DNA of 64,000 bases from Sipunculus nudus (Eukaryota > Annelida > Sipuncula > Golfingiida > Sipunculidae): NCBI GenBank assembly GCA_026874595.1, contig CM049320.1, positions 42,914,714 to 42,978,713 of the forward strand, read 5' to 3'. Shown here piece by piece: positions 25,496-53,799 of the stretch. A program made the translations under genes and the position numbers. Positions within the stretch are counted from its first letter, which is position 1, and each line of letters opens with the position of its first letter. The notes under the pieces are model-generated. The model ran no database searches, was not told the origin of the DNA, and saw only the letters and a program-made list of their open reading frames with translations.

Positions 25496-25761
25496 GGAAT
25501 GAATGGAATAACTTCCATGCCTGAAGAAAAGTACCTGTACAATAAACTATCCAAAACCAGCCAGAATGGGAAAAGGCTCCTCAGTCATAGGCTCATTCTT
25601 CCAAAGAATAACTCGCAAGAAGGCTTTGGAGAGATCTGGAAATCTTGAGACCGCACTTCATCGTTGCTATGGCACAGTTGATCTGACGCTACTTGGGATT
25701 GGTTCCATGGTTGGCTCCGGCATATACGTGGTTGTTGGCACAGCCACACGTGATCAGGCTG
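25496..25761 (+). CDS. Transporter exon with start codon
   Basis: A TATCTATTTTAG acceptor ends at 25495, so an upstream non-coding exon is expected. The frame is closed by TGA at 25500-25502, and the first in-frame ATG is 25566 (MGKGSSVIGSFF). Two upstream out-of-frame ATGs (25499, 25517) share a frame and could act as a short uORF. Coding runs to 25761, giving residues 1-65 plus one base, with donor G|GTAGG. It encodes a basic cytosolic N-terminus and the first helix (about 39-59) with GIGSMVGSGIY, the substrate-backbone-binding segment of the APC superfamily. Confidence 0.85.
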
Positions 25762-28700: not shown

Positions 28701-31700
28701 AAACTAGTGGCACCATCTACAACCATTTTTGCACAGCATCAATATGTTCATTTGCACATCATGGAAAGGTTTCTCATTTATATGACAGGTTGCCCTACCT
28801 ACTATCTCTTTTATACTGCAGACATCCATGCTAATATCTCAGGACTGGTTCGGCTTATCAGCCTGAATTTTTGCATGTTTATAGATCTTACATTGTTCTT
28901 TATAATACAAAAAACTGGTTGCCCCACATACAAAACTATTTTTACATGGGGTTCATTTGTTTTTCTGTCTAGGGTAAAAATCACTAATATCCCGGCAGTG
29001 GTTAGACTTATCAGCCTGAAATTTCGCATGTGTACATATCTTGGATAGATTTTTTGTTGAATTGGCAGGTGGCACCACCTATAAACATGTTTACTAGGCA
29101 GACACCCATGCTTATATCTCAGGACTGGTTTGACATCTCGGCCAAATATTTTGCATTTGTATAGATCTTACATAGTTCTACAGCTTTAAATACAAATTTG
29201 ATGGCCCAACCAACAACCATTTTTGCATGTAGTCCATCTGCTTCTCTGCCCAGGGTAAAAATCACTTATATCTCAGGATTGGTTTGACTTATCCATCTGA
29301 AATTTTGCATGTGTATACATCATGGACAGGTGGCTTCCATGCTTATATCTCAGGACTGGTTTGACATATCAGCCTAACCCTCCACCCCATTAATAATGCA
29401 ACACATCTCCCTCCATTTCCCCTTAGCACTTGATCCATGCCTCACTTCAACAATACCACTCTGATATCAGTGTTCTTTTCAACTAGCCATATTCTTATTG
29501 GTACTCAGTAACAAGTGTATGCCTGAGAATGACAAGTAAATGTGTGTGTGTGCACTGTTTGTGTGTATGTTTTTTTTTCAAGTTGATTAAAATTAAAACA
29601 CAATGCATCTGAAGAAACAGAAACAAGAGAAATTATAATCCTTTCACTGACATAAACTTGTTCTGTGAATGTTTGTGATTTCAGGCCCTTGGGTAGCACT
29701 GTGATTTATATCTGTTCTGTAAAATTTTGTGATTTCAGGCCCTTTGGTAGCACTGTGATTTATATGTTCTGTGTACGTTTGTGATTTCAGGCCCTGGTAT
29801 AGCACTGTGATTTATATCTGTTTTGTATGTGTTGTGATTTCAGGCCCTGGCATAGCACTGTTATTTAAATCTGTTCTGTAAAATTTTGTGATTTCAGGCC
29901 CTTTGGTAGCATTGTGATTTATATGTTCAGTGTAGGCCTACATTTGTGATTTCATGCCCTTGGGTAGCACTGAGATCTGTTCTGTAAAATTTTGTGATTT
30001 CAGGCCCTTTGGTAGCACTGTGATTTATATGTTCTGAGTACGTTTGTGATTTCAGGCCCTGGTATAGCACTGTGATTTATATCTGTTTTGTATGTGTTGT
30101 GATTTCAGGCCCTGGGATAGTACTTTCCTTTTTGGTAGCAGCAGGGGTGGTGGCTCTGGCAGCGGTGTGTTTTACAGAGTTTGCTACTCGCATCAGTAAG
30201 ACCGGCGGCACATATCTGTACACCTACTGCAGTCTTGGGGAGATCTGGGCGTTCCTGGTGGGCTGGGGTCTGCTCTGCAGTGAGTACCTCAAATTACATA
30301 AAATGTTCTGGACTAATCACAACATCATTGAAAAGTTGGCAATGAATGCAAAATATCTGCAACAAGTTACATACTGTACTCCTCAGAAAATTACTTGATT
30401 TCATTAACTGGAAATCAGTTTTAGTACCAGATAGTCTTGCAAAAATGGAAACACAGACTCCTCCTTCAAAATGATTCATTTACCATGATAAAGCCTGAAT
30501 GCTAGCTTACTAGCAGACAGTATCATATTTGCATACTAAGCAACTTTTCCTTTCCAGTTCACTGGATGTGACAGTTATTATTGTATAAATGGTTAACAAC
30601 TGTTGATTAAACTGACAGTACTTTGAACTCTTTGCCAATATAACACATTAACACTGTTGTTGATCATGTAAAGTAGTTCATGTAACAGTTTAAGCCACTC
30701 AAAGCAGTTGTCATTCTTTGTATCCCCAGTCAAAGTCAGGGATATTATGGTTTAAGCACAGTCCCACCACTGCTGTCCAACTGTTGGACAGATTTCTTTC
30801 ATATTATCCATATGCAAAGATATAAGGTTTATGGGATGAGGTATATTTAAATTGGGGTCATGACCTTTACCATGAGAGTGGTCTTGACCTTGAATATCTC
30901 CATATTTGGTGAAAATCACACCAAAATGTTGTTTCTGAATTGAATGTATCTGTCTGATAATCAAAATGAAAGATGTCAGATGATAAGTTGTTGAAAGAGT
31001 TTAAAAACCTGTGACCTTCACCTTCACCTGTCAAATCTGCCAATTTATAGAATCTTTGTTTACCCCATTACTTTTGAAGTACCCTATCTTTCTTCAAATG
31101 TGACACACAGATTGTTTCCTCCAAAATCTCTGACATGTTTAAAGTCTTGTGACCTTGACCATGTTTTCAAGGTCAAATATGTGGAAACAAAGGAATTTTG
31201 TTTACCCCTTAACTTTTGAAGTAAAGTATTTCTTTTCTTCAAATTTTATACATAAATTGTTTCATACAAGTTGTTGGATGTGTGGACATGATTCTGGTTT
31301 CCTTGGCCTTGTCAAGTGTTAATGTATGCTTCAGAAGAAGGGGGCCTATTTAAGAGGGGTTATGCCTTAATAATCTCTGGTGTGACTGGTCTGTCCCTGT
31401 GTACACAATGTACAAAATAATCTAATTCTTGTTCAAACTCTGTTGTAGTTTTATCAGTGTTATGTTGTGGTGCTCTACTTAAAGTCAGCAATGTATAGTT
31501 CTTCCCCTTTTCTTTAGGTGTATTCAATGTCATATTTCTCTAATCTACTGAGCATTCTCTGTATTTCCTGGAGGTGTATGCATCAGAGGTTTTCTAAATA
31601 TAGTTTCAAATGGTTTGTGATCATTTTCGATTTTGAGTTTTTTTTCATAAGTGTACTGATGAAACCTTACACAAGCAAAAACTACTGATAAACATTCTTT

Positions 31701-34700
31701 TTCTTACTGTGCATGGATTTGTTCTGTGTATGGGCTTATGAAGCATATAACATGGGTTGTCCTTGCTGTAACAACACAGTATCTAATCCTGGTGTGCTTG
31801 CATCACATGATATTGTTGCTTCATTTTCAAGATTATAATATTTCAAACAGTGTTTGCTTGTAACAACTTCTTTGATCTTTTTAAAAGCTGTTTCTTGTGC
31901 CAATTCCCACTAAAATTCTACATCTTGTTTGAGCATCAATTTAAGTGGTTGTGTCACATATTAAGCATTTGAAAAAAACCTGGATAACCAGTTAACCAAA
32001 CCTTCTAACCTGTGTATACCCTGTTTGTCTGTTGGTCTTTCCATTTTGACAATAGCTTTAACCTTGGATAGATCTGGTGACATCCCTCCTCCTGTGATAA
32101 TGTGCCCTAAATACTTTATGCTACCCTGTTTGATCAGACATTTCTCCACATTCAGTTTGATGTTTTCTATTTTGCATGTTTCTAGTACCCGTTGTTATAT
32201 CTGATCATTTTCCTGTTCTGTTCTGGCATATATCAGTATGTCATCCACATAGTTTACAGTGCCTGTTATTCATTTTAACAGTTGACTAACCTTTTTCTGA
32301 AACACTTCATGTGCACTAGAAATTCTGAGAGGCATTCTCCTAAACCTGTAATGCCCAAATGGTGTGTTAAAGGTTGTTCACCTTGAGCTTTTCTCTTAAG
32401 AGTTTTACTTACCAGTACCCTGATGAGCAATCTAATGTGGTGAAATACTTACAACCTGCTAGTCTAGCCTGAATATCTTCCATGGTTGGTCTAGTATAAT
32501 CTCTTTTTATTACCTTGTTCAGCTCTCTGGGGTCCTAACATATTCTGAGTGATATATCTGGCTTCTCAACTGTAACCAAACTGTTAACCCAATCTGAAAG
32601 CTCATCCACTGGTGTTATTATTTTGTTTTTGACCATCTTGTCTAAATAAGCTTTCAGTTTTGGTTTTATGCTTTCTGGAATTCTTCTCACTGGGTAAGCT
32701 ACTGGTTCTACATTCTCCTGTAAACTTAGGTCATATTCAACTTTTAGTTCTCCTAATCCTTTGAATATATCTTTGAGTAAATACATCTTCTTGTTTGTAA
32801 GAATCTCTTTGCATAGCGTGGATACTCTGAACCATATTAAGTTCTGTCAATGTTTTCAGTCCCAGGATAGGTATAGAATCAACCTCTACAATGAAGAATT
32901 TTACAGGATACAACCCTCCTCTGTACTCTAGATTTACTATCACTTTTTTACCCACAACTTGTTGGCTGCTGGTATCTCTGTTATATGCACTAATCCTCAC
33001 TTTACATTTGTTCAACTTATCTGGTATGTCTAGATCTTTATACACCTTGTTTGGTATTATGTTTATCTGAGACCCAGAATCCAATTTGAAATTTAGTTGC
33101 TGGTCAGCTTCACATATCTCTGTCTGCTCAATCCACTCATCGTCATCTTGTTCTACATCTGTACTACATTTGCTCAATGCATTTGTTGTCATACCTTCAT
33201 GTACATTGTGATTATCAGCATCAACATGAACTTTATCATTATCATTTAACTGTGAACAGCATCAACATGAACTTTATCATTGTTATCATGTATAACATCA
33301 TCATCACATGCATCAAACATATTATTCAAGTGCATATCAATGTGGTCATCTTTGTAAAACTAGAGTCTCTATAGAATAATTAAAGTCTCTCTCACCGGTC
33401 CTGGACTCAGTCTCTGATACCTGTTGTACCGGTATGTACTCTGTATATATGGTGCTTCTCTATGTGGCTTTCTCTTCTGTGTTTTGTGTTGTCTGACAGC
33501 ACCTTGTGAAATGGTTAGTCTTGTTTTACTTCTTGCATGTCTTGCAGTGTGCATGAAAGTTTTCTGGTGCATGTTGTGAGCCACATCTGGTACATCTAGA
33601 TATAGGTCCTTCTGCTACAGGTGCCACATTTCTACTGTGTCTACGAAATCATGGACAGATTGACTCGTCACGTGGGAGCCAGTCATGTGTATTATTTCGG
33701 CCACTTGTTCTCTGGATGCTTCACAATATTCCTGTGGGCACAGCAGTAACACTTGATACCCTTTTTATACTGGACTACTTTGTTTATTCTTTTACAATAT
33801 CAGTTCACTGTCTAGACCAATGACCTTGACCTTAGCCTTATAAGCCATGAACAATATAAACAATAAGATAGTTCAATTATGTAACAACTGTGGATTTTTT
33901 TTGTGAGCTATGTGAAACAACACGATTTGAAAACCCTATAAGTCAGATTGACACAAGTCATAGCAGTTTGACAGAGAAACTTCTAACTTTGCATCCAGGG
34001 AGTTCCTGGTAAAATCTTCTTGGTAACTTTAAAAAAGGTGACTGTGACCTATTTTTCTAAAGATTATCAGCAAAAAAACATGATTTTGAACACTCTGGAA
34101 GTGACTCTACCCATTGTTCAAGGTTCCTCAACAAATAGTTTTCATTTGATCATAACATCAATAGTTGATTGAATTTCTAAGTGTCAGAGATTAACTGAGC
34201 ATCATGACCCCTAGGTCACTTGTTTATAACACTGGAAATAACATCTGCAATATATCTGTTGTTTCTTTTGTTTACTTTTCCATGAGTACATCAAGTGTTT
34301 GCTTTAGAGACATGTCTGTAATGTAGACATTCAGAGAGCTTCCTTTGTGTACCTATATTAAATCAATGCAAGAATAAACATTGGGATGCTTCTTTCATTT
34401 CAGCTAGTGTTGCTAGTGCAGCAACTAATGCCAAAGCATGGAGTGGATACCTGGACTCACTGTTTGACCACCAGATCAGGAATCTGACAGAGACCTATGT
34501 TGCTCACTGGACAGTGGGTAAACCTATTGGTTCCCACCCGGACTTTGTGGCATTGGGAGTCATATGTATCCTCATGGTGGTAGTATCTTTGGGTGCTCAG
34601 TGTACAGCCAGATTTAACCATATATTTGCAGGGCTTAATGTGCTAGTTCTCATGTTTGTGACAATAACTGGGCTAGCTCATGCCAACATTTCTAACTGGA

Positions 34701-37700
34701 CATCTAACAGTACCGGTGGATTCTTGCCATATGGAGTCAAAGGAGTTCTAGCTGGGTCGGCTTCAGCCTACTGGGCAATGACGGGATTTGAAAGTATTTC
34801 TGTTGCAAATGAGGAAACTAAAGATCCGTTAAAGTCCATCCCTTGTGCAACAGCTGCAGCAATAACCACTGTTACTCTGTTGTATATCGGAACCAGTTCA
34901 TCACTCACGTTAATGACATCCTACAAAAATGTGGAAGTCAGGGCACCATTACCAGGAGCTTTCGCAGATATTAACTTAACATGGGCCCAATACATCGTGG
35001 CCATTGGTCCTCTATTTGGCTTCACCACAACCTTACTTGGGACTGTGTATTCCTATACCAGACTCAGCTATACAATATCTCACCATGGCCTCTTGCCTCA
35101 GATTTTAGGTAAGCTAAACAGCAGAACAAAAGTACCAGTCAATGCTGTGCTGATCGGAGGAAGCCTGATGGCATTAATCGCCGTGTTCTTAGACATCAGG
35201 GACACCATTGACTTTGCGGTTAACCTGACCTTGTTACAGTATTTATTAATCGCATCTTGTGTTCTTGTTCTTCGGTATCAGCCATCAGACTCCCATCTGT
35301 TGGACCTGCCAGGTTTCCTGGACAACAGCATGAAACGTGACAGCGACGGGAAATGTGACAGTGAAGAGGAAGTTGTGCTGCTTGATGTTCCAGGAGCATT
35401 GAAAGGCATACACAAGGACCCTGATACAACACAGCTAGCAAACTCCAGTAATAACAAAACAAACAGTACATCAGAACTCATGCCATCTAAGGCCCCACAA
35501 GGGGAGGATAATGCTCTGTTCTCATCTGATGATGAACAATCAGGTTTATCAAGACACAGACATCCATCCACCAGCAGTGACATTCTAACAAATGTACATG
35601 AAGATGAAGTTGGAAGAAGTCCTCATAATAAACCCAGGTCACATTCACCCACAGAGGATTTGATATTTAGGTCTTCTACTGCGCTGCAAGTTCCATCAGG
35701 TCATACCTTGAACAGTGCATTAAATGCAGGCCAATTAAAAGACACATTCAGATGCCTGCAGCCAGTCTCAATCCCTCCTGCTGGATGCTGTGTGAAGATT
35801 TCCATTGTCCTCTCTATTGTCTGCATGACACTTTTGTTATTAGTGGTGGTGTTTGCTCATGTCCAGTTGGCTCAGGGGGCATGGTGGCTTATTGCTACAG
35901 TTGTCATATTAATTATCCTCATCATCATCCAAGGATTCATGATCTGGACTCATCGCCAAAATATATACAAACTCAAGTTCAAGGTTAGTACTCTGTTCTT
36001 TATAAAAGTCAAGTTTTAAAGTTATGGTTGGTTTTTAGCTCAGCTGACTGAAAGTCATCTGAGCTATAGCGATCACTCTTTGTCCGTCGTCCGTCTGTCC
36101 GTCTGTCTGTCTGTCCGTCTGTCTGTCTGTCCGTCTGTCCGTCTGTCCGTCCGTTAACCAGGCACAAATCGTAACCGCTGGACCTAGAACCTTGTAACTT
36201 GGGATTCTGAGAGGTCCATAAAAAATCTCCTTGGAAACCAGAAATTAGGTCTCTGTTTCCCATATCCTTCGAGCTATGTGGCCCCAAATACCCCCAGAAA
36301 AGTAAAAAATTTCATACAAAAACTTCAATATCTCATTAACTACTTGACTGATGGTCATGATTTTTGGCATACATATTGATCATGAGATGTTACATCACTT
36401 CCTGCAGACTGGTGGCGCCACCTGTATTTTTCGATTTTTTACGAATTTTTTTCTCTATTTTTGAGACCTTTAAAAATGTGAACATCTGTTAACAAGGCAC
36501 AAATCATAAAGACTGGACTTAGAATCTTAATTCTTGACACACTGAGAGGTCCATGAAAAATCTCCTTGGAAACCAGAAATAAGGTCTCTGTTACCCATAT
36601 CCTTTGAGCTATCGGGCCCCAAAGTACCCCCCAGAATAGTAAAAAATTTCATACAAAAACTGCAATATCTCAATAACTACATCACTGATGGTCTTCATTT
36701 TTGGCATACATATTGATCATGAGATGTTCGATCAGTTCCTGCAGACTGGTGGCGCCACCTGTACTGTTTGATTTTTTACGATTTTTTCCTCTATTTTTGA
36801 GACCTTTGAGGATGCTGTCATCTGTAAGCGTGGCACAAATCGTAACGACTGGACCTAGAATCTTTATTTTCGACACACTAAGAGACCTATGAAAAGTCTC
36901 CATGGAAACCAGAAATTAGGTCTCTGTTACCCATATCCTTCGAGCTATGGGGCCCAAAATTACCCCCCAGAATAGTCAAAAATTTCATACAAAAACTTCA
37001 ATATCTCATTAACTACATCACTGATGGTCATGATTTTCGACATACATATTGATCATGAGATGTTTCATCAGTTTGTGCAGACTGGTGGCGCCACCTGTAT
37101 TTTTTAATGTTCACGAATTGTTTTCTCCATTTTTGAGACCTTTAAGGATGTAGTTATCTGTCAACAGGGTACAAATCGTAACGACTGGACCTAGAATCTT
37201 CGTTCTTGACACACAGGGAGACCCATGATAAGTCTCCATGGAAACCTGAAATTTGGTCTCTGTTACCCATATCCTTTGAGCTATGGCACTCCAAAGTACA
37301 GCTCAGAATAATGGAAAATTTGATACAAAAGCTAAAGTATCTGAACAACTAATGCAGAGATAACCATAATTGTTTGCATGGATATTGATCATGGAGTGTT
37401 TCATAAGTTTCTGCAGACTGGTGGCACCACCTGTATTTGTTCGTTTTTTTTTACGAAATTTTTCTGTATTTTTGAGACCTTTAAAGATATGAACATCTGT
37501 TAACAGGGCACAAATCATAAAAACTGGACCAAGAATCTTCATTCTTGACACACAGGGAGACCCATGAAAAGTCTCCATGGAAACTTGAAATTAGGTCTCT
37601 GTTACCCATATTCTTTAAGCTGTATGGGTCCAAAATACCCCCCCCACCATGAATAATGGAAAATTTGATACAAAAACTGCAGTATTTCAATAACTACAAC

Positions 37701-40700
37701 ACTGATGGTCATGATTTTCGGCATACATATTGATCATGAGCTGTTCCATCAGTTTCTGCAGACTGGGTGTGCCACCTCTATTTTTTTTCAAATTTTTACG
37801 AATTTTTTTCTTTTTTTTGAGACCTTTTAAGATGTGGTTATCTGTCAACAGGGTACAAATCGCAACAACTGGACCTAGAATCTTCATTCTTGTCATGCAA
37901 GGAGGCCCATGAAAGGTGCCTGTGGAAACTTGAAATTAGGTCTCTGTTACCCATATCCTTCAAGCTATAGGACTCCGAAGTATCCCTCAGAATAATGGAC
38001 AATTTGAAACAAAAACTGAAGTATCTGAACAACTAATGCAGAGATCACCATGATTTTTTGCATGGATATTGACCATTAAGTGTTTTTATTAGTTTCTGCA
38101 GACTGGTGGAGCCACCTGTATTTTTGTATCCGCCAAAACGAAGTTTTGCAGATACTATGTTTCTGACCGAGTTCCTCCGCCGTGGCGGCGTTCGTTTCCA
38201 GAGAGCTCGTCGGAGACTAATGGACCAATTTTTCCCAAACTTACACCTATTATCGGGTCACATGTGAACTGGTGCCTAACCAATTTGCATTGACCTCTGA
38301 CCTTTCCTCTCTATCCAGTGTCCATTTGTGGGTCTGTTTCCACTCATAAACCCTCATATCTCGGGAACCGTTTGACCGATCAGGAAATAAAATTGATACA
38401 AATGTAGCCCTTGGATTGCTTTATAACATACACAAAAAATGGTGGCGCCACCTGTAACCATGTTTCCACAGTGTCCATCTGTTCATCTGCCTTGGGTTAA
38501 AATCACTCATATCTCTGCAGTGAATTGACTAATTCACCTGAAATTCGTCATGTGTATACATCCAGGATAGCTTTCTTGATTTTATGACAGGTGGCGCCAC
38601 CTACGTTCACGTTCACGCTGATGACATCCAAGCTTATATCTCGGGAACCGTTTGACCGATCAGGAAATAAAATTTATACAAATGTAGCCCTTTGATAGCT
38701 CTGTAACATACACAAAAAATGGTGGCGCCACCTGTAACAATGTTTGCACAGCGTCTGTCTGTTAGTCTGCCGTGGCCTAAAATTACTCATTTCCCTGTAG
38801 TGGTTCGACATAACTGCCTAAAATTTTGCAGGTTTATACATTGTGGACAGCTTTCTTGATTTTATGACAGGTGGCGCCACCTACATTCTAGTTAACGCTG
38901 GACACATCCAAGCTCATATCTCAGGAACCATTTGACCGATTGGGCCAAAATTGTGCATGTGTTTAGATCTCACATAGGTCTTTATCATACACAAAACTGG
39001 AGGGGTTACCTGCAAAGATTTTTGCACAGTGTTTGTCTGTTTGTCTGCCATGGGCAAAAATCGCTCATATACATGTAGTGGTTTGGCTTTTCTGCCTAAA
39101 ATTTTGCAGGTGTATACAACTTGGACAGATTTCTGGATATGTGGTAGGTGGCACAACCTACATACACATTTAGGCTGCAGACATCCATGCTAATATGCAA
39201 CATACCTCACTCTATTTCCCCTTGCCACTCAATCCATGCCTCACTATCCGATTTTGGCAGATACATGTAGTCACTTGTCGGTTACCCGTATTCTAGTTTT
39301 AAAAGTTTACACATTTTTCTCTATTTTTGAGATATATAAATACAGACTAAATCTTGGCCTGTTGGTTAATCTGTTTGATGCTTCAGTTGAATGGGTATAT
39401 ACTACCATTCTGGTGATAAATTTCCTTTTGCGAATCTCTTCCCAGTCAGCTGAGCGCCATGACCCATGGGTCACTTGTTGATGGTGTGAAGTAAAGAGAG
39501 TTTCTTTTGAAAGAGTACAACATTGGAAAAGTGGTATTACTTAGAGATAAAAGGAAAAAAAAGAAAATAAATAAAAGAACAAGATGAACCATCAGCTAAT
39601 GTATGGTGTCACTGCTGTGTTCAGATCTGTACTGTGTGTTGTAGTTCTTCTTAATTTCCTGAAATGAGTCACATTCATTATTATAAATAATTTTTTTTGA
39701 AAATTTAATGTTATTTTTCAACAGTTTCTTAACATATTTATCTTTTTTGCATTATTAACCCAGGTCCCATGTGTACCAGTACTACCGCTGCTCAGCATGT
39801 TCAGTGTGCTGGTGTTAATGGTGAACTCAGGGTCAGTTAGTAGTTGGGTAGGCTGCCTGACCATCATGTTAATAGGTAAGTACAGTGTGCTGATGTTTAT
39901 GGTGAACCCAGGGTCAGTGAGTATTTGTGGAAGTTGCTTGGCCATCATGTTACTAGTTAGGTCTAGTGTCCTGGTGTTAATGGTGAACTTAGAGTGAGTG
40001 AGTAGCTGGGTAGGCTGCCTGGCCATCATGTTATTAGTTAGGTACAGTGTCCTGGTGTTAATGGTGAACTCAGAGTCCGTGAATAGCTGGGTAGGCTGCC
40101 TAGCCATCATGTTATTAGTTAGGTACAGTGTCCTGGTGTTAATGGTGAACTCAGGGTCAGTTAGGAGCTTGGGAGGCTGCCTGGCCATCGTGTTATTAGT
40201 TAGGTACAGTATGCTGGTGTTAATGGTGAACTCAGAGTCAGTGAGTAGCTGGGTAGGCTGCCTGGCCATCATGTTATTAGTTAGGTACAGTGTGCTGGTG
40301 TTATGGTGAACTCAGGGTCAGTTAGTAGCTTGGGAGGCTGCCTGGCCATCATGTTATTAGTTAGGTACAGTGTGCCGGTGTTAATGGTGAACTCAGGGTC
40401 AGTGAGTAGCTTGGGAGGCTGCCTGGCCATCATGTTATTAGTTAGGTACAGTGTGCTGGTGTTAATGGTGAACTCAGAGTCAGTGAATAGCTGGGGAGGC
40501 TGCCTGGCCATCATGTTATTAGTTAGGTACAGTGTGCTGATGTTAATGGTGAACTCAGGGTCAGTTGGTAGCTTGGGAGGCTGCCTGGCCATCATGTTAT
40601 TAGTTAGGTACAGTATGCTGGTGTTAATGGTGAACTCAGGGTCAGTGAGTAGCTGGGTAGGCTGCCTGGCCATCATGTTATTAGTTAGGTACAGTGTCCT

Positions 40701-43700: not shown

Positions 43701-46700
43701 GTGTTAATGGTGAACTTAGAGTCAGTGAATAGCTAGGGAGGCTGCCTGGCCATCATGTTATTAGTTAGGTACAGTGTGCTGGTGTTAATGGTGAACTCAG
43801 GGTCAGTTAGTAGCTTGGGAGGCTGCCTGGCCATCATGTTATTAGTTAGGTACAGTATGCTGGTGTTAATGGTGAACTCAGGGTCAGTGAGTAGCTGGGT
43901 AGGCTGCCTGGCCATCATGTTATTAGTTAGGTACAGTATGCTGGTGTTAATGGTGAACTCAGGGTCTGTGAGTAGCTGGGGAGGCTGCCTGGCCATCATG
44001 TTATTATTGAGATACAGTGTGCTGGTGTTAATGGCGAGCTCAGGGTCAGTTAGTAGCTTGGGAGGCTGCCTGGCCATCATGTTATTAGTTAGGTACAGTA
44101 TGCTGGTGTTAATGGTGAACTCAGAGTCAGTGAGTAGCTTGGAAGGCTGCCTGGCCATCATGTTATTAGTTAGATACAGTGTGCTGGTGTTAATGGTGAA
44201 CTCAGGGTCAGTTAGTAGCTTGGGAGGCTGCCTGGCCATCATGTTATTAGTTAGGTACAGTATGCTGGTGTTAATGGTGAACTCAGAGTCAGTGAGTAGC
44301 TTGGGAGGCTGCCTGGCCATCATGTTATTAGTTAGTTAAAGTGTGCTGGTGTTAATGGTGAACTCAGGGTCAGTTAGTAGCTTAGGAGGCTGCCTGGCCA
44401 TCATGTTATTAGTTAGGTACAGTGTGCTGATGTTAATGGTGAACTCAAAGTCTGTGATTAGCTGGGGAGGCTGCCTGGCCATCATGTTATTAGTTTGGTA
44501 CAGTATGCTGGTGTTAATGGTGAACTCAGAGTCAGTGAGTAGCTGAGGAGGCTGCCTGGCCATCATGTTATTAGTTAGGTAGAGTGTCCTGGTGTTAATG
44601 GTGAACTCAGGGTCAGTTAGTAGCTTAGGAGGCTGCCTGGCCATCATGTTATTTGTTAGGTACAGTGTGCCGGTGTTAATGGTGAACTCAAGAGTCCGTG
44701 AATAGCTGGGTAGGCTGCCTGGCCATCATGTTATTAGTTAGGTACAGTGTGCTGATGTTAATGGTGAACTCAGGGCCAGTGAGTAGTTGGGTAGGCTGCC
44801 TGGCCATCATGTTATTAGTTAGGTACAGTGTGCTGGTGTTAATGGTGAACTCAGAGTCAGTGAGTAGCTGGGGAGGCTGCCTGGCCATCATGTTATTAGT
44901 TAGGTACAGTGTCCTGGTGTTAATGGTGAACTCAGGGTCAGTGAGTAGCTTGGGAGGCTGCCTGGCCATCATGTTATTAGTTAGGAACAGTGTGCTGGTG
45001 TTAATGGTGAACTCAGAGTCAGTGAGTAGCTTGGGAGGCTGCCTGGCCATCATGTTATTAGTTAGGTACAGTGTGCTGGTGTTAATGGTGAACTCAGGGT
45101 CAGTTAGTAGCTTGGGAGGCTGCCTGGCCATCATGTTATTAGTTAGGTACAGTGTGCTGGTGTTAATGGTGAACTCAGGGTCAGTGAGTAGCTGGGTAGG
45201 CTGCCTGGCCATCATGTTATTAGTTAAGTACAGTGTGCTGATGTTAATGGTGAACTCAGAGTCAGTGAGTAGCTTGGGAGGCTGCCTGGCCATCATGTTA
45301 TTAGTTAGGTACAGTGTGCTGATGTTAATGGTGAACTCAGGGTCAGTTAGTAGCTTGGGAGGCTGCCTGGCCATCATGTTATTAGTTAGGTACAGTATGC
45401 TGGTGTTAATGGTGAACTCAGGGTCAGTTAGTAGCTTGGGAGGCTGCCTGGCCATCATGTTATTAGTAAGGTACAGTATGCTGGTGTTAATGGTGAACTC
45501 AAGAGTCAGTGAGTAGCTGGGTAGGCTACCTGGCCATCATGTTATTAGTTAGGTACACTGTGCTGATGTTAATGGTGAACTCAGAGTCAGTTAGTAGCTT
45601 GGGAGGCTGCCTGGCCATCATGTTATTAGTTAGGTACAGTATGCTGGTGTTAATGGTGAACTCAGAGTCAGTGAGTAGCTTGGGAGGCTGCCTGGCCATC
45701 ATGTTATTAGTTAGGTACAGTATGCTGGTGTTAATGGTGAACTCAGAGTCAGTGAGTAGCTGGGTAGGCTGCCTGGCCATCATGTTATTAGTTAGGTACA
45801 GTGTGCTGGTGTTAATGGTGAACTCAGGGTCAGTGCGTAGCTTGGGAGGCTGCCTGGCCATCATGTTATTAGTTAGGTACAGTGTGCTGGTGTTAATGGT
45901 GAACTCAGAGTCAGTGAATAGCTGGGGAGGCTGCCTGGCCATCATGTTATTAGTTAGGTACAGTGTGCTGGTGTTAATGGTGAACTCAGGGTCAGTTAGT
46001 AGCTTGGGAGGCTGCCTGGCCATCATGTTATTAGTTAGGTACAGTATTCTGGTGTTAATGGTGAACTCAGAGTCAGTGAGTAGCTGGGTAGGCTGCCTGG
46101 CCATCATGTTATTAGTTAGGTACAGTGTGCTGGTGTTTATGGTGAACTCAAAGTCTGTGAGTAGCTGGGGAGGCTGCCTGGCCATCATGTTATTAGTTAG
46201 GTACAGTGTACTGGTGTTAATGGTGAACTCAGAGTCAGTGAGTAGCTTGGGAGGCTGCCTGGCCATCATGTTATTAGTTAGGTACAGTGTCCTGGTGTTA
46301 ATGGTGAACTCAGGGTCAGTGAGTAGCTGGGTAGGCTGCCTGGCCATCATGTTATTAGTTAGGTACAGTATGCTGGTGTTAATGGTGAACTCAGGGTCAG
46401 TGAGTAGCTGGGTAGGCTGCCTGGCCATCATGTTATTATTTAGGTACAGTGTGCTGGTGTTAATGGTGAACTCAGGGTCAGTTAGTAGCTTGGGAGGCTG
46501 CCTGGCCATCATGTTATTAGTTAGGTACAGTATGCTGGTGTTAATGGTGAACTCAGAGTCAGTGAGTAGCTGGGTAGGCTGCCTGGCCATCATGTTATTA
46601 GTTAGGTACAGTGTGCTGGTGTTAATGGTGAACTCAGGGTCAGTTAGTAGCTTGGGAGGCTGCCTGGCCATCATGTTATTAGTTAGGTACAGTATGCTGG

Positions 46701-49700
46701 TGTTAATGGTGAACTCAGAGTCAGTGAGTAGCTTGGGAGGCTGCCTGGCCATCATGTTATTAGTTAGGTACAGTGTGCTGGTGTTAATGGTGAACTCAGG
46801 GTCAGTGAGTAGCTTGGGAGGCTGCCTGGCCATCATGTTATTAGTTAGGTACAGTGTGCTGGGTTAATGGTGAACTCAGAGTCAGTGAGTAGCTTGGGAG
46901 GCTGCCTGGCCATCATGTTATTAGTTAGGTAAAGTGTGCTGGTGTTAATGGTGAACTCAGGGTCAGTAAGTAGCTTGGGAGGCTGCCTGGCCATCATGTT
47001 ATTAGTTAGGTACAGTGTGCTGGTGTTAATGGTGAACTCAAAGTCTGTGATTAGCTGGTGAGGCTGCCTGGCCATCATGTTATTAGTTAGGTACAGTATG
47101 CTGGTGTTAATGGTGAACTCAGAGTCAGTGAGTAGCTGGGGAGGCTGCCTGGCCATCATGTTATTAGTTAGGTACAGTGTCCTGGTGTTAATGGTGAACT
47201 CAGAGTCAGTGAGTAGCTGGGGAGGCTGCCTAGCCATCATGTTATTAGTTAGGTACACTGTGCTCGTGTTAATGGTGAACTCAGGGTCAGTTAGTAGCTT
47301 GGGAGGCTGCCTGGCCATCATGTTGTTAGTTAGGTACAGTATGCTGGTGTTAATGGTGAACTCAGAGTCAGTGAGTAGCTTGGGAGGCTGCCTGGCCATC
47401 ATGTTATTAGTTAGGTACAGTGTGCTGGTGTTAATGGTGAACTCAGGGTCAGTTAGTAGCTTGGGAGGCTGCCTGGCCATCATGTTATTAGTTAAGTACA
47501 GTGTGCTGATGTTAATGGTGAACACAGAGTCAGTGAGTAGCTTGGGAGGCTGCCTGGCCATCATGTTATTAGTTAGGTACAGTGTGCTGATGTTAATGGT
47601 GAACTCAGGGTCAGTTAGTAGCTTGGGAGGCTGCCTGGCCATCATGTTATTAGTTAGGTACAGTATGCTGGTGTTAATGGTGAACTCAGGGTCAGTTAGT
47701 AGCTTGGGAGGCTGCCTGGCCATCATGTTATTAGTAAGGTACAGTATGCTGGTGTTAATGGTGAACTCAAGAGTCAGTGAGTAGCTGGGTAGGCTGCCTG
47801 GCCATCATGTTATTAGTTAGGTACACTGTGTTGATGTTAATGGTGAACTCAGAGTCAGTTAGTAGCTTGGGAGGCTGCCTGGCCATCATGTTATTAGTTA
47901 GGTACAGTATGCTGGTGTTAATGGTGAACTCAGAGTCAGTGAGTAGCTTGGGAGGCTGCCTGGCCATCATGTTATTAGTTAGGTACAGTATGCTGGTGTT
48001 AATGGTGAACTCAGAGTCAGTGAGTAGCTGGGTAGGCTGCCTGGCCATCATGTTATTAGTTAGGTACAGTGTGCTCGTGTTAATGGTGAACTCAGGGTCA
48101 GTGAGTAGCTTGGGAGGCTGCCTGGCCATCATGTTATTAGTTAGGTACAGTGTGCTGGTGTTAATGGTGAACTCAGAGTCAGTGAATAGCTGGGGAGGCT
48201 GCCTGGCCATCATGTTATTAGTTAGGTACAGTGTGCTGGTGTTAATGGTGAACTCAGAGTCAGTGAGTAGCTTGGGAGGCTGCCTGGCCATCATGTTATT
48301 AGTTAGGTACAGTGTGCTGGTGTTAATGGTGAACTCAGGGTCAGTTAGTAGCTTGGGAGGCTGCCTGGCCATCATGTTATTAGTTAGGTACAGTGTGCTG
48401 ATGTTAATGGTGAACTCAAAGTCTGTGATTAGCTGGGGAGGCTGCCTGGCCATCATGTTAATAGTTAGGTACAGTATGCTGGTGTTAATGGTGAACTCAG
48501 AGTCAGTGAGTAGCTGGGGAGGCTACCTGGCCATCATGTTATTAGTTAGGTACAGTGTGCTGGTGTTAATGGTGAACTCAGGGTCAGTGAGTAGCTTGGG
48601 AGGCTGCCTGGCCATCATGTTATTAGTTAGGAACAGTGTCCTGGTGTTAATGTTGAACTCAGAGTCAGTTAGTAGCTTGGGAGGCTGCCTGGCCATCATG
48701 TTATTAGTTAGGTACAGTGTGCTGGTGTTAATGGTGAACTCAGGGTCAGTGAGTAGCTGGGTAGGCTGCCTGGCCATCATGTTATTAGTTAGGTACACTG
48801 TGCTGATGTTAATGGTGAACTCAGAGTCAGTTAGTAGCTTGGGAGGCTGCCTTGCCATCATGTTATTAGTTAGGTACAGTATGCTGGTGTTAATGGTGAA
48901 CTCAGAGTCAGTGAGTAGCTTGGGAGGCTGCCTGGCCATCATGTTATTAGTTAGGTACAGTATGCTGGTGTTAATGGTGAACTCAGAGTCAGTGAGTAGC
49001 TGGGTAGGCTGCCTGGCCATCATGTTATTAGTTAGGTACAGTGTGCTCGTGTTAATGGTGAACTCAGGGTCAGTGAGTAGCTTGGGAGGCTGCCTGGCCA
49101 TCATGTTATTAGTTAGGTACAGTGTGCTGGTGTTAATGGTGAACTCAGAGTCAGTGAATAGCTGGGGAGGCTGCCTGGCCATCATGTTATTAGTTAGGTA
49201 CAGTGTGCTGGTGTTAATGGTGAACTCAGAGTCAGTGAGTAGCTTGGGAGGCTGCCTGGCCATCATGTTATTAGTTAGGTACAGTGTGCTGGTGTTAATG
49301 GTGAACTCAAGGTCAGTTAGTAGCTTGGGAGGCTGCCTGGGCATCATGTTATTAGTTAGGTACAGTGTGCTGATGTTAATGGTGAACTCAAAGTCTGTGA
49401 TTAGCTGGGGAGGCTGCCTGGCCATCATGTTATTAGTTAGGTACAGTATGCTGGTGTTAATGGTGAACTCAGAGTCAGTGAGTAGCTGGGGTGGCTGCCT
49501 GGCCATCATGTTATTAGTTAGGTACAGTGTCCTGGTGTTAATGGTGAACTCAGGGTCAGTGAGTAGCTTGGGAGGCTGCCTGGCCATCATGTTATTAGTT
49601 AGGAACAGTGTCCTGGTGTTAATGTTGAACTCAGAGTCAGTTAGTAGCTTGGGAGGCTGCCTGGCCATCATGTTATTAGTTAGGTACAGTGTGCTGGTGT

Positions 49701-52700
49701 TAATGGTGAACTCAGGGTCAGTGAGTAGCTTGGGAGGCTGCCTGGCCATCATGTTATTAGTTAGGTACAGTGTGCTGGTGTTAATGGTGAACTCAGGGTC
49801 AGTGAGTAGCTTGGGAGGCTGCCTGGCCATCATGTTATTAGTTAGGTACAGTGTCCTGGTGTTAATGGTGAACTCAGAGTCAGTGAGTAGCTTGGTAGGC
49901 TGCCTGGCCATCATGTTATTAGTTAGGTACAGTGTCCTGGTGTTAATGGTGAACTCAGAGTCAGTGAATAGCTTTGGAGGCTGCCTGGCCATCATGTTAT
50001 TAGTTAGGTACAGTATGCTGGTGTTAATGGTGAACTCAGAGTCAGTGAGTAGCTTGGGAGGCTGCCTGGCCATCATGTTATTAGTTAGGTACAGTGTGCT
50101 GGTGTTAATGGTGAACTCAGGGTCAGTTAGTAGCTTGGGAGGCTGCCTGGCCATCATGTTATTAGTTAGGTACAGTATGCTGGTGTTAATGGTGAACTCA
50201 GAGTCAGTGAGTAGCTTGGTAGGCTGCCTGGCCATCATGTTATTAGTTAGGTACAGTGTGCTGGTGTTAATGGTGAACTCAGGGTCAGTTAGTAGCTTGG
50301 GAGGCTGCCTGGCCATCATGTTGTTAGTTAGGTACAGTATGCTGGTGTTAATGGTGAACTCAGAGTCAATGAGTAGCTTGGGAGGCTGCCTGGCCATCAT
50401 GTTATTAGTTAGGTACAGTGTGCTGATGTTAATGGTGAACTCAGAGTCAGTGAGTAGCTTGGGAGGCTGCCTGGCCATCATGTTATTAGTTAGGTACAGT
50501 GTGCTGATGTTAATGGTGAACTCAGGGTCAGTTAGTAGCTTGGGAGGCTGCCTTGCCATCATGTTATTAGTTAGGTACAGTATGCTGGTGTTAATGGTGA
50601 ACTCAGGGTCAGTTAGTAGCTGGGTAGGATGCCTGGCCATCATGTTATTAATTAGGTACACTGTGCTAATGTAATGGTGAACTCAGAGTCAGTTAGTAGC
50701 TTGGGAGGCTGCCTGGCCATCATGTTATTAGTTAGGTACAGTATGCTGGTGTTAATGGTGAACTCAGAGTCAGTGAGTAGCTTGGGAGGCTGCCTGGCCA
50801 TCATGTTATTAGTTAGGTACAGTATGCTGGTGTTAATGGTGAACTCAGAGTCAGTTAGTAGCTTGGGAGGCTGCCTGGCCATCATGTTATTAGTTAGGTA
50901 CAGTATGCTGGTGTTAATGGTGAACTCAGAGTCAGTGAGTAGCTTGGGAGGCTGCCTGGCCATCATGTTATTAGTTAGGTACAGTATGCTGGTGTTAATG
51001 GTGAACTCAGAGTCAGTGAGTAGCTGGGTAGGCTGCCTGGCCATCATGTTATTAGGTACAGTGTACTGGTGTTAATGGTGAACTCAGAGTCAGTGAGTAG
51101 CTGGGTAGGCTGCCTGGCCATCATGTTATTAGTTAGGTACAGTGTGCCGGTGTTAATGGTGAACTCAGGGTCAGTTAGTAGTTGGGTAGGCTTCCTGGCT
51201 ATCATGTTATTAGCTAGGCACAGTATGCTGGTGTTAATAGTGAACTCAGAGTCAGTGAGTAGCTGGGTAGGCTGCCTGGCTATCATGTTATTAGGTAGAT
51301 ACAGTGTGCTGGTACTGATGTTGAACTTGGGGTACTTCTATAACTGGCCTGTGTTACAGGTGCTCTTTTTATTGTGTGACACGGGCGTGACTCATGTTGT
51401 GACACCCTCGCCGGGCAGTTTGTTACATTCGCAGTTTAATCTGTACTGGTTGAACTCTCATTGTCATGGCTAGCTTTGGGCTTTTTCGCCTGGTTGTGAG
51501 TCACGTGTGGACCCTGGTATGTAGGGACGCACACGGCAATGTTCTTCTAGATGGTTCCTGATGGTTCGTGTTTACTGTGTATTGTAGGATCTTTTAGACT
51601 GTTAGAGAAAAGGAAAATTCTCGGCTTGGGGTGAAGAGTATATAAAGGGGCTGTGTTTTAGAGCCAAGAGAGCAGCAGAGAAGATTTCCAGTGTACGCAG
51701 AAGCATGTGTGTCAGTAGCTGGGACCTTATCTGACGAGTGCGGCAATTATAGATTTTCTTCAAACTTTCTCCTGGATTTTGTGCATTTGGACTTCACTTT
51801 ACTTTTTGGATTGTTACAAGAGCTTTACACGGGACTGTCATTCTCCGAGAGTATATATTTAAAGAACATATCGTTGTGATGGTGGTGGTATCCAGGTAAT
51901 GGGCACTTTGTGTATTTTACTGTGTGATTGTATTGATTTCTTGTCATACTGCTGTTTTACTGTATAATTGTATTAATTTAGTGTATTGTAATGTTAGGGT
52001 TGTTTTAATAAATAAATTATGGTTATTTGTTAACAGAAAAACACTTACTTCTTTATTCATTCCCCTAGACATTTCACGCTGCCTAGTGTTACAGAATCTG
52101 AATTTTTTTATCTCCATTGCGGGATTTGTGTTCATCACGCATACGTGATCTGTTTATATTAGGTTCTGTAACACCTGTCATACCAGTCGTTGGTATTTTA
52201 CCAAATAAAGATATATCAAGAGAAAAAAAGCCTTGTGAAGCTTTTTATACAGTTGTAGTTTATGTAAAATATGTCTGTACTCAGTGGTCTACTTCACATA
52301 GTCTCCTGTAGAATATGTGCATCTTCTCACTGTATATACTAGGGCTGCATCAATATACCAATACACATCAATTTGGTTACCAATACACCTCGCATGCTGT
52401 ATCTTTGTATCAATTAACAATTCCTGCAAACAAATATAGAGACAATGCTAACCTAAGCTATGATCATAATCTTGAGCTAGTTTTGTTTCTTTTGTTGGCC
52501 TTTTAAGACTTGAATAAGATCACATTTATTGTTGTATGATCAACTAGATAAGGGATGTATGTACACTTGCCAGTGCTTCCATGACAAACCGGCAAGTGTG
52601 AGCATTGACAGACAGATAATGTGAACGGTCCTCCATAGCGTTGATTGTATTTCTATCACTGAAATATGTATATGTACGGCATGTATTTCATTTTATGATT

Positions 52701-53668
52701 CATTATCATATCTCTGATTATTTTTTAAATATGAGCAAAGCAATGTCTTGAGGTCTTTTTATACCTGCACAGCCTGTACTAGATGAAAACAACTGTAATT
52801 GGGCGTCAAAGCCTAGTGAAAATCAACCATTACTTTACCAGGAGAAATGTGATTTTGGGATTCACATTCCCAGAAACATATGAAAACTGTGCTTTCATAA
52901 CATATAAGATAATGACCTGAATTCTTCCCATTAACCTACTAGGAAGGGGTTGAGGAAAGGACAAAAAAACAAAATCTAAATTTTAATACCTGATATTTAG
53001 TCCACTTTTAAACACATGAGGTTAAATAAATAGGAGATAAAACTTATCTAAATATTAAATATCTCATGCCATATATGAAATGAATGTTTTTGCCCATCAT
53101 TTGAAATGAGTGCCTACCAACCCTGAAGTGGACACTGCAGCACTATCTTATGGCGTCACTGATATGTGGATCACTTGAGCTAAACATAAGCATACGACTG
53201 CCTGAAATGCTCTGGCATATATTTGTATATATGTAAATATATATATATATATATGTAAGTATGTGTGTGTGTTTCTGTGTGTACACATAAATTATGGGTC
53301 TTTTTAATCACAAAAGTTTTAATAAGAAAATGATTCACAAAGAAAACTAAGCGTATCATCAATACGTATCAGATATCGCTTTAGGTGTATCACAATTCGT
53401 ATTGTACTAGAATAGGCTGACCAATACCTAGCCCTAGTAGATACACTAGTGTACTTCATGTGCAGTCTCCTGTCTAATATATCTGCTGTATTTTCTCTGT
53501 AGGTAGACTGCTGAACTTCACTTGCAGACTCCTGTGTAATATGTTTGTATTTTCTCTGTAGGTACCGTGGTGTACTTTACATACAGTCTCCATCACAGCG
53601 TAGAGAATCACGTGTTCAGAGAAGACATCCAGTTGGAGGAAAGAGCTTTACTCCTTGACCAGGAATGA
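25566..53668 (+). CDS. SLC7A4/SLC7A14-like: SLC7 cationic amino acid transporter family protein (five coding exons, 721 aa)
   Basis: Joining 25566-25761, 30109-30279, 34404-35983, 39764-39875 and 53562-53668 gives 2166 nt, ending in TGA. All introns are GT..AG and all phases match (1, 1, 0, 1). The product carries the CAT hallmarks in order: LLGIGSMVGSGIY (first helix), EFATRISKTGGTYLYTY and GEIWAFLVGWGLL (helices 2-3), AWSGYLDSLF, SANEE-type VANEETKDPLKSIP, TRLSYTISHHGLLP, then VPCVPVLPLLSMF and IGTVVYFTYSLHHS near the end. An acidic/Ser-rich loop of about 170 residues (about 415-585) precedes the last helices. That loop and the 721-residue length favour the SLC7A4/A14 branch over classical CAT1-3. 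Expected role: multi-pass membrane amino-acid transporter. Substrate cannot be told from sequence. Its introns are swollen by repeats. Confidence 0.85.
25762..26448. other. Intron 1, left part
   Basis: AT-rich intronic sequence between the exon-1 donor and the solo LTR. I see no repeat copy or coding exon. Confidence 0.6.
26449..27222 (-). mobile_element. Solo LTR, 774 bp, inside intron 1
   Basis: Begins TGTTACAG and ends CGGTAACA, with the 4-bp duplication ATAT on both sides (26445-26448 and 27223-27226). It is homologous along its length to the reverse complement of 51352-52173. Read on the minus strand it has a GAGTATATAAGGGG TATA box near 26950-26965 and an AATAAA-type signal further on. 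No internal retroelement sequence adjoins it, so it is a solo LTR left by LTR-LTR recombination. Confidence 0.85.
27223..28534. other. Intron 1, middle part
   Basis: Intronic sequence with a poly-C run at 28452-28467. I see no gene; a short GC-richer patch near 28200-28260 is not protein-like. Confidence 0.5.
28535..29465 (+). repeat. Degenerate copy of the TATCCGCCAAAAC-headed repeat
   Basis: The head reads CACCAAAACAGTTTTGTGGATACTATGTTTT (in pieces), a decayed form of the perfect hairpin at 59671. It continues with repeated modules TATCTCAGGACTGGTT and AAATTTTGCATGTGTA, and ends with ATTTCCCCTTAGCACTTGATCC. The ends of the copies at 39230 and 60775 have the same last module. The palindrome here is degraded to GGTGGCACCACC (near 29068). 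Confidence 0.75.
29630..30108 (+). repeat. 53-bp tandem repeat of the exon-2 splice acceptor (nine copies)
   Basis: The word TGATTTCAG|GCCCT occurs with its AG ending at 29684, 29738, 29790, 29843, 29897, 30003, 30055 and finally 30108, the real acceptor of exon 2. One more copy (near 29955) has AG changed to AT. Spacing is 48-58, mostly 52-54. Each unit holds the pyrimidine tract, AG and the first 15 or so exon bases. In the decoys the exon frame ends quickly (for example GC CCT TGG GTA GCA CTG TGA). Three flavours of spacer (AAATTTT, GTACGTTT, TATGTGTT) recur in order, which points to duplication in blocks. Confidence 0.9.
30109..30279 (+). CDS. Transporter exon 2
   Basis: Starts in phase 1 (completing a Gly codon) and ends TGC A|GTGAGT. 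Encodes PGIVLSFLVAAGVVALAAVCF (helix 2), then the conserved EFATRISKTGGTYLYTY loop and GEIWAFLVGWGLL (helix 3) with the invariant GE-WAF. Its 5' boundary is the last unit of the 53-bp acceptor repeat. Confidence 0.9.
30280..31369. other. Intron 2, left part with dispersed repeat
   Basis: From about 30740 to 31330 a dispersed repeat appears. It includes the inverse of the CCCCAATTTAAATATAC segment found at 5812, and a pair of modules rich in TTGACC and ACTTTTGAAGTA near 31060-31230. I see no exon. Confidence 0.55.
31370..31960 (-). pseudogene. Gypsy RNase H and connection (relic)
   Basis: The minus strand reads FKKIKEVVTSKHCLKYYN, then ATISCDASTPGLDTVLLQQG, which holds the RNase H D-A-S. It continues QPMLYAS (stop), then QEIQRMLSRLEKYDIEYT and YTLLTLSRAPQ, the usual end of the domain before integrase. 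Several stops are present. Confidence 0.8.
31961..32786 (-). pseudogene. Gypsy reverse transcriptase (relic)
   Basis: 32786-32535 reads YDLSLQENVEPVAYPVRRIPESIKPKLKAYLDKM and VKNKIITPVDELSDWVNSLVTVEKP, the N-terminal entry of Ty3/Gypsy RT. The catalytic box is intact as YVDD (32251-32240). 32149-31961 reads CLIKQGSIKYLGHIITGGG and VNWLSRF, the RT thumb. Frame breaks lie between these pieces. Confidence 0.85.
32737..33192 (-). pseudogene. Gypsy aspartic protease (relic)
   Basis: A 151-codon open frame holds FKLDSGSQINIIP (catalytic DSG), then VNLEYRGGLYPVKFFIVEVDSIPILGLKT. The last part contains the flap-to-ILG region that closes the retropepsin fold. This is a complete-looking protease domain. 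The related protein upstream of the minisatellite at 12.2 kb shares LDSGSQ. Confidence 0.85.
33480..33650 (-). pseudogene. Gypsy gag zinc knuckle (relic)
   Basis: The minus strand reads CTRCGSQHAPENFHAHCKTCKK, then a stop, then NKTNHFTRCC. This is the compound C-C-H-C / C-C-H-C knuckle common at the gag end of invertebrate Gypsy elements, with one Cys codon position lost to TAA. Confidence 0.75.
33651..34403. other. Intron 2, right part
   Basis: AT-rich intronic sequence ending in the exon-3 acceptor CTTTCATTTCAG (AG at 34402-34403). Nothing else is seen. Confidence 0.6.
34404..35983 (+). CDS. Transporter exon 3 (large)
   Basis: Starts in phase 1 (A|CT) and ends AAG|GTTAGT in phase 0; 1580 nt, residues 123-649. 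Encodes AWSGYLDSLF, two N-glycosylation-type sites (NLT, NIS) in the outer loop, then about seven helices. It includes YWAMTGFESISVANEETKDPLKSIP (the CAT helix 6 region) and FTTTLLGTVYSYTRLSYTISHHGLLPQ. After VLVLRYQPSD comes an acidic, Ser-rich cytosolic insertion (about residues 415-585). Two more helices follow (CVKISIVLSIVCMTLLLLVVV and WWLIATVVILIILIIIQGFMIW) and then a basic tail. One very large internal exon next to three small ones is notable. Confidence 0.9.
35984..36035. other. Intron 3 start
   Basis: Donor GTTAGT at 35984 with short intronic sequence before the repeat block. Without splicing, the frame closes at 36017-36019 (TAA). Confidence 0.7.
36036..38128 (+). repeat. Hairpin-headed dispersed repeat with six ~337-bp internal units
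   Basis: The head reads AGCTCAGCTGACT-GAA-AGTCATCTGAGCT, a 13-bp near-perfect stem (one mismatch) with a 3-nt loop, at 36038-36066. A (GTCC/GTCT)n tract follows. Then comes a unit with the palindrome GGTGGCGCCACC at 36411, 36748 and 37084, and decayed palindromes near 37421, 37765 and 38107, for a period of 336-344. Shared words per unit are TAACRRGGCACAAATC, GGAAACCAGAAAT, ATTGATCATGAGATGTT and TTTTTGAGACCTTT. Single-unit relatives of the family start at 62039 and 62387. Confidence 0.85.
38129..39305 (+). repeat. TATCCGCCAAAAC-headed dispersed repeat, long copy
   Basis: The head GTATCCGCCAAAACGAAGTT and the tail module GATTTTGGCAGATACATGTAG (near 39250) are inverted relatives (TATCYGCCAAAAYC), followed by TACCCGTATTCTAGTTTT as in the copy at 59671. 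Inside are four exact GGTGGCGCCACC palindromes at 38441, 38590, 38721 and 38870. Repeated modules include TATCTCGGGAACCGTTTGACCGATC. It directly follows the previous repeat with almost no spacer. Confidence 0.8.
39306..39763. other. Intron 3, right end
   Basis: AT-rich sequence ending in TTTGCATTATTAACCCAG, the exon-4 acceptor (AG at 39762-39763). Nothing else is seen. Confidence 0.7.
39764..39875 (+). CDS. Transporter exon 4, source copy of the 81-bp array
   Basis: 112 nt, phase 0 to 1, residues 650-686. Encodes VPCVPVLPLLSMFSVLVLMV, matching the VPL.P.LP..S of CAT helix 13, then NSGSVSSWVGCLTIMLIG, the start of the last helix. Donor ATA G|GTAAGT is strong. From about 39798 on, the exon is itself the first unit of the minisatellite that fills intron 4. 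So the 3' two thirds of this exon and its donor lie within the tandem repeat. Confidence 0.85.
39798..51340 (+). repeat. 81-bp exon-derived minisatellite, about 142 copies
   Basis: The ATG of CCATCATGTTA recurs exactly every 81 bases (39868, 39949, 40030, 40111 ... 51287). The unit equals exon 4 from CAGTGTGCTGG through the donor region. In the + frame it reads SVLVLMVNSGSVSSLGGCLAIMLLVRY, a 27-residue hydrophobic module. In antisense it reads MMARQPPKLLTDPEFTINTSTLYLTNN. Because 81 is a multiple of 3 and both frames lack stops, frames stay open for up to 965 codons (47777-50674, +) and 712 codons (50661-48523, -). Rare indels shift phase (-1 at 40301 and 41029; +1 at 43231, 44690, 45501 and 47769; -4 at about 51053). 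Interior units have TTAGTTAGGTAC in place of the exon donor ATAGGTAAGTAC. There is no evidence that the array is translated. Confidence 0.95.
51295..51300 (+). other. Candidate alternative splice donor in the last array unit
   Basis: In the final unit the sequence is ATG TTA TTA G|GTAGAT, aligned base for base with the real exon-4 donor ATG TTA ATA G|GTAAGT and in the same phase. The unit near 51056 has G|GTACAG at the same place. Interior units lack this. Whether it is used cannot be told. Confidence 0.35.
51639..51646 (+). promoter_or_regulatory. LTR TATA box
   Basis: TATATAAA followed by GGGGCTG, conserved in the minus-oriented copy near 26955. It could start transcription toward exon 5 of the transporter. 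Confidence 0.65.
52007..52016 (+). promoter_or_regulatory. LTR polyadenylation signal
   Basis: AATAAATAAA lies about 360 bp after the LTR TATA box and on the same strand as the transporter gene. It could cause premature 3' end formation within intron 4. Confidence 0.5.
52260..53561 (+). repeat. ~58-bp tandem repeat of the exon-5 splice acceptor, split by a hAT-like element
   Basis: The real acceptor region TCTCTGTAG|GTACCGTGGTGTACTT ... CAGTCTCC is preceded by TCTCTGTAG|GTAGACTGCTGAACTT ... CAGACTCC (AG ending 53502, 59 bp earlier). Before that is CTGTATATAC...ACTAGTGTACTT...CAGTCTCC, now divided by the insertion at 52340-53436. First in line is a diverged copy near 52275 (CTGTACTCAGTGGTCTACTT ... 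AGTCTCC). So the acceptor and the first 30 or so bases of exon 5 exist in four local copies. Confidence 0.8.
52340..53436. mobile_element. 1097-bp hAT-like element in intron 4
   Basis: The ends TAGGGCTG and TAGCCCTA are inverted. The inner ends CATCAATATACCAATAC and GGCTGACCAATACC are related. The flanking 8-mers are GTATATAC (52332-52339) and GTAGATAC (53437-53444), 7 of 8 identical. The interior has no transposase; it contains a (TA)n/(TG)n patch at 53229-53270. It landed inside one unit of the exon-5 acceptor repeat. Confidence 0.75.
53562..53668 (+). CDS. Transporter exon 5 with stop codon
   Basis: Begins in phase 1 and completes Gly, so the join reads LIG-TVVYFTYSLHHS, the usual end of the last CAT helix (IG.LIYF.Y...HS). 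It continues VENHVFREDIQLEERALLLDQE and stops at 53666-53668 (TGA). The acidic cytosolic tail with a dileucine-like EERALLLD could serve in sorting; that is inference. Its acceptor is the last unit of the 58-bp repeat. Confidence 0.88.
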
Positions 53669-53799
53669 ATATGTATGTAACAGAGGGCTTACTTTACAAC
53701 CAGTTTATCTTATAGATGCCAACTGTTTCACCTCTAAATATTTGTGTTGAAAGGTTTGGTTTTGTTGCATTAAACATGTTGAGAGGTTAACACACTAAC
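53669..53799 (+). other. Transporter 3' untranslated sequence (start)
   Basis: AT-rich sequence after the stop. The variant poly(A) signal ATTAAA lies at 53769, just ahead of the 45-bp minisatellite. The next canonical AATAAA on this strand that I noticed is near 55734, beyond the minisatellite. Confidence 0.4.

Follow-up and report, generated by a model that had tools for sequence, protein, structure and literature searches.

The window analysed here, a stretch of 64,000 nucleotides, carries on its + strand a gene of five exons which, when joined, comprise 721 codons and a stop codon, with GT and AG bounding all four of its introns. The protein matches the Pfam families AA_permease_2, AA_permease and AA_permease_C, and judged by its sequence the gene is an SLC7A4-like cationic amino acid transporter. 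Its coding exons are as follows:

25566..25761, + strand: coding exon 1, from the ATG (open frame with the donor GTAGGA; homology)
30109..30279, + strand: coding exon 2 (gene model; homology across the exon 1/2 join)
34404..35983, + strand: coding exon 3 (gene model; both ends single-copy)
39764..39875, + strand: coding exon 4 (its final 74 bases are the exonic portion of the first 81-bp unit, described below)
53562..53668, + strand: coding exon 5 with the stop codon (gene model; homology across the exon 4/5 join)

The best solved relatives of the transporter are structures of high-affinity cationic amino acid transporter 1 (the records 9uat and 9fqt), and the alignment to 9uat covers query residues 12-422 and 574-699, so that it crosses the joins between exons 1 and 2 and between exons 4 and 5. 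Named relatives (among the best 120 of 292 matches) are mostly annotated as cationic amino acid transporter 4 or 1. Together, the Pfam domains, the 9uat alignment across joins and the annotated relatives make the gene model independent of the repeats that we describe below. Among the matches listed (the best 120 of 292 and the best 120 of 273), the nearest named protein is from Capitella teleta (46% identity over 60%), the nearest of all is an unnamed ENA protein (46% over 64%), and none exceeds 49% identity. A host among the well-sampled lancelets, such as Branchiostoma, is therefore unlikely, but the animal may still be a cephalochordate; the general character of the DNA would suit a marine invertebrate. 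Starting 126 bases after the stop codon is an array of about 35 copies of a 45-bp unit (53794-55353), which probably lies in the 3' untranslated region or just beyond it.

Tandem arrays at three exon junctions

Each of the eight junctions of the gene, taken with 60 bases on either side, was compared with the whole window. Tandem copies were found for three of them, namely the exon 2 acceptor, the exon 4 donor and the exon 5 acceptor (9, 143 and 2 matching rows, respectively, self included). The other five junctions are single-copy: four match only themselves, and the query for the exon 4 acceptor touches the 81-bp array through its last 25 bases and, with those bases removed, gives only its self-match. 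About 170 bases past the exon 3 donor, a 335-bp unit begins that is repeated approximately six times (36150-38125) and excludes the donor itself. Considered as sequence, the arrays exceed chance, with 18 tandem clusters in the real window and none in one block-shuffled window. The features at the three junctions are the following:

29653..30124, + strand: 53-bp array of nine copies that covers the exon 2 acceptor (the unit takes in about 16 exon bases)
39799..51333, + strand: 81-bp array of 142 full copies and one partial copy that covers the exon 4 donor and occupies most of intron 4
52275..52330, + strand: degenerate copy of the unit at the exon 5 junction, set apart from the others (shuffle-tested alignment; the weakest copy)
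52331..53445, + strand: insertion of about 1.1 kb that splits the exon 5 array (16-bp imperfect inverted ends)
53437..53591, + strand: array of a unit of about 60 bp, three contiguous copies, the last of which covers the exon 5 acceptor (the unit takes in about 30 exon bases)

At all three arrays the predicted working junction sits in the copy at the exon-side edge, and the remaining copies are intronic. The gene model, homology, junction queries and array calls all bear out the original prediction that three arrays span junctions of this gene, and its coordinates were correct to within a few bases; the occurrences are also independent, as it had proposed, in that the three unit sequences are mutually unrelated and each is anchored at a junction. 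What it had said of the composition of the units held in part: intron and exon bases are indeed combined in them, but the splice dinucleotide that was supposed to accompany these bases is missing from nearly all 81-bp units (GT in only 2 of 142).

The exon 2 array contains nine acceptor-type copies at a spacing of 48-58 bp. The AG dinucleotide is present in eight of the nine, including the authentic acceptor, and AT occupies its place in the remaining one, which leaves seven of the eight intronic copies with AG. Concerted evolution is partly seen in this array, where the copies at 29739-29844 recur at 30004-30109.

The exon 4 array extends over 11.5 kb with 93% matches, and its unit consists of 74 exonic and 7 intronic bases. 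It bears a signature of turnover: 91 distinct units are found among the 142, a higher-order period of about 28 units is weakly apparent (16% of the unit pairs at that distance are near-identical), and the edges are divergent (the first two copies carry 7 and 11 changes and the last two 8 and 7, against a mean of 3.1). The array therefore combines concerted evolution in its interior with divergent edges.

At exon 5, a distance of 59 bp separates the last two junction points. The insertion of about 1.1 kb, which is probably a transposon and at its right end runs into the beginning of the next copy, lies inside the array, so that the array should predate it. The putative fourth copy, on the far side of the insertion, aligns with the coding copy at a score of 29 and with copy B at 28, and neither score is reached by any of 500 shuffles (maximum 24); its score with copy C is 23, which 2 of 500 shuffles reach. 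When the window was scanned with this fourth copy, its best matches beyond itself fell in the exon 5 array (33 and 29), and an unrelated place at 55881 scored 28. Of all the copies, it is the weakest claim.

Coding and splicing capacity of the intronic copies

The dinucleotide homologous to the exon 4 donor is TT in 135 of the 142 copies, TA in three, GT in two, TG in one and CT in one, with GT confined to the authentic first copy and the full copy at 51221. That 140 of the 142 donors are dead is strong evidence against a donor role at this position and weak evidence for counter-selection, because one dead founder could have seeded nearly all of them. Other GT sites within the array resemble donors (62 match seven of the nine consensus positions, and one matches eight, equal to the authentic donor). 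These sites, together with a unit length that is divisible by three (and hence in frame) and the AG kept in the exon 2 copies, are what might be expected if intronic copies had been selected as decoys that absorb or regulate splicing, or that yield isoforms with additional 27-residue units.

The products that splicing at the intronic copies would give argue against this. Moving the start of exon 2 to any of the eight intronic positions (seven with AG) brings in a stop after residue 71-77, that is, at codon 72-78 of 721. Ten TAG positions upstream, within or next to the exon 5 array, lead to stops after residue 688-740 (normally 721). If the coding frame is read on beyond the exon 4 donor, it ends in a stop at 39995, and splicing at the last intact 81-bp donor would place the stop at codon 727. 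The substitutions among the 81-bp copies point the same way: compared with the consensus in the coding frame, 112 of 414 differences in the intronic copies are synonymous (0.27, as against 0.28 expected without selection), or 24 of 76 when each variant is counted once. Codon position 2 is the most variable, and length changes not divisible by three shift the frame in 10 of the 142 copies. The 81-bp array changes like neutral DNA.

Translation of the 81-bp array yielded no relative at E <= 0.001 among 7990 protein-database candidates scored, which also tells against selected isoforms; with no relative and no selection on the frame, we rejected the possibility that it encodes a genuine repeat protein.

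Taken together, the truncating stops, the neutral synonymous fraction and the frame shifts make the intronic copies look inert. Selection on frame or splice dinucleotides was not found in the 81-bp copies, and the AG in eight of nine exon 2 copies stands as the exception. Because the block at 29739-29844 recurs at 30004-30109, this retention may reflect only recent homogenisation of the 53-bp array; retention in seven of eight intronic copies nonetheless counts against the view that the copies are wholly inert, and selection may have acted there.

Published counterparts

The original prediction held that no described system resembles this one, which is wrong in view of two published precedents, the lancelet 'mirages' (PMC3087553, PMC3902484) and a human IFI6 minisatellite (PMC4526556). 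Mirages are minisatellite-like tandem duplications of exon/intron boundaries, and they have been published for at least five lancelet genes (the globins BflGb6 and BflGb9, Adh3, troponin C and PGBD5; PMC3087553, PMC3902484). PGBD5 has two mirage arrays in one gene, and troponin C is cited as a further case (PMC3902484); the first report of Adh3 mirages dates from 2002. The repeat units described measure 10-160 bp and are present in 2 to 7 copies, and no interference with splicing is reported (PMC3087553, PMC3902484); mirages have been proposed there as a source of new introns (PMC3087553).

The arrays in the transporter gene share the anatomy of mirages. Intron and exon bases are combined in a unit that straddles a 5' or 3' exon boundary, the genuine copy has intronic ones next to it, some copies have splice dinucleotides and others lack them, and concerted evolution leaves out the edges (seen here in the 81-bp array and partly in the 53-bp one). 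In the present gene such a boundary-spanning unit occurs at three of eight junctions, with the genuine junction apparently in the exon-side copy. What is new here is the presence of three arrays in one gene, one of them with 142 copies that extend across 11.5 kb. In the lancelets, instability of length and the undisturbed course of splicing were examined; the present arrays are known from the DNA of a single haplotype.

The human IFI6 (6-16) gene provides the second precedent. As presented in PMC4526556, through which we cite the original report (Turri et al. 1995), two downstream repeat units of its minisatellite act as donors and three mRNA species result. The likeness is that a tandem repeat overlaps a splice donor, and the existence of a minisatellite that supplies alternative donors lends some plausibility to decoy function. 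The difference is that the units of IFI6 serve as donors, whereas at the homologous position here GT is found in 2 of 142 copies and the donor is dead in the other 140. Further parallels are the gain of introns via tandem genomic duplication, in which duplications with splice signals alter gene structure (PMC4974935), and the tandem repeats discussed at exon-intron boundaries of human duplicated genes in segmental duplications (PMC2812944). Both involve tandem duplications that contain splice signals, as here; unlike in the intron-gain cases, no new intron is seen in the transporter gene.

The titles and abstract openings listed from the open-licence literature included no account of junction-spanning arrays in any invertebrate besides lancelets. 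The transporter gene contributes a well-defined case, unusually large at 142 copies, to a phenomenon that has received little study and has been suggested to give rise to introns; a host outside the lancelets would also widen the known range of mirages.

Origin of the arrays and other repeats in the window

We consider it probable that these are three independent mirage-type minisatellites, produced by tandem duplication followed by unequal exchange or slippage, and that their functionless copies have been tolerated. In each case a short stretch of DNA that by chance contained an exon edge would first have undergone tandem duplication, through slippage during replication or through end-joining, and the pattern of the copies suggests that the array then grew by unequal exchange or slippage. 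Growth could have proceeded only into the intron, since the exon-side copy would be held in place by selection on the protein and by the working splice site, leaving the intronic copies to drift. Splicing would take place at the outermost intact copy, and the intronic copies would have no function of their own, being by-products of local DNA duplication. The coding copies retain the conserved protein and canonical splice sites, and ordinary tandem duplication and expansion can be tolerated because one intact copy of each junction remains. The repeats are real, separate and anchored at junctions, and local slippage, one of the origins that had been suggested for them, or unequal exchange is a likely source.

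The number of arrays at junctions is larger than uniform placement leads one to expect. Seven arrays lie within the gene span (units of about 280, 53, 138, 335, 280, 81 and 60 bp), of which three span junctions and four do not. In our placement model, one seed unit per array was positioned at random in the array-stripped gene, excluding seeds that lay inside an exon or contained one; the fourth copy at exon 5 did not enter the model. The expected number of arrays at junctions under this model is 0.66, with P = 0.02 for three or more of the seven. For short-unit arrays only (the three junction arrays and a 41-bp array called by TRF at 33214-33310, to which the probability for the 53-bp array was assigned), three of four lie at junctions and P = 0.0004, a value to be read with the cut having been chosen post hoc. 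Because of that cut, and because the gene was picked for being striking, the excess is only suggestive, and whether arrays occur at junctions beyond chance location is uncertain. There are more junction arrays than uniform placement expects, so blind duplication may not explain everything.

The corresponding alternative is that in this genome tandem duplication favours exon edges, as might happen through DNA structures linked to transcription or splicing, so that recurrence is far above chance. Both counts above favour it, as do the at least five lancelet genes with such repeats (two arrays in PGBD5), but at P = 0.02 some 500 such cases would arise by chance among 25,000 equally array-rich genes, the four-array count was selected after the fact, and the published lancelet cases considered here stem from studies of particular genes and not from a scan. 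We regard this alternative as unlikely. It is equally doubtful that junctions here, and perhaps in lancelets or other lineages, are true hot spots of array birth by a process tied to transcription or splicing; if they were, mirages would be a general source of intron growth and of new introns, and not scattered accidents. Long-read genomes make it possible to distinguish exon edges that are hot spots of duplication from exon edges at which arrays have merely been noticed.

An assembly artefact, in which repeats were collapsed or over-expanded, is very improbable. The copy number of an 11.5-kb array is admittedly hard to assemble, but the 91 distinct units among 142 and their higher-order pattern are unlike a simple error of duplicated reads, and copy number has no bearing on the two small arrays or on their divergence; the 91 distinct units led us to reject assembly error as the whole explanation. 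Least probable of all is the selection for decoy splice sites that had also been put forward, which we reject on account of the dead 81-bp donors, the premature stops from the exon 2 copies and the neutral pattern of change.

The remainder of the window holds further repeats and traces of mobile elements. No structured RNA was found in it at gathering score, and nine other open reading frames gave only domain matches below the cut-offs (reverse transcriptase, DUF7121 and aspartyl proteases), so that no further gene with introns was recognised among them. On the minus strand, 11066-11356 and 32737-33258 have reverse-transcriptase and aspartyl-protease matches that fall below the curated cut-offs and are probably remnants of retroelements. 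A 22-bp array of about 30 copies (12241-12897) is GC-rich relative to its surroundings. Arrays with units of 277-280 bp occur at four places (4847-5792, 28755-29377, 38353-39196 and 59968-60740) and, judged by eye, have a GTGGCGCCACCTG-like motif in common; they may constitute one dispersed family, perhaps the interior of a mobile element.
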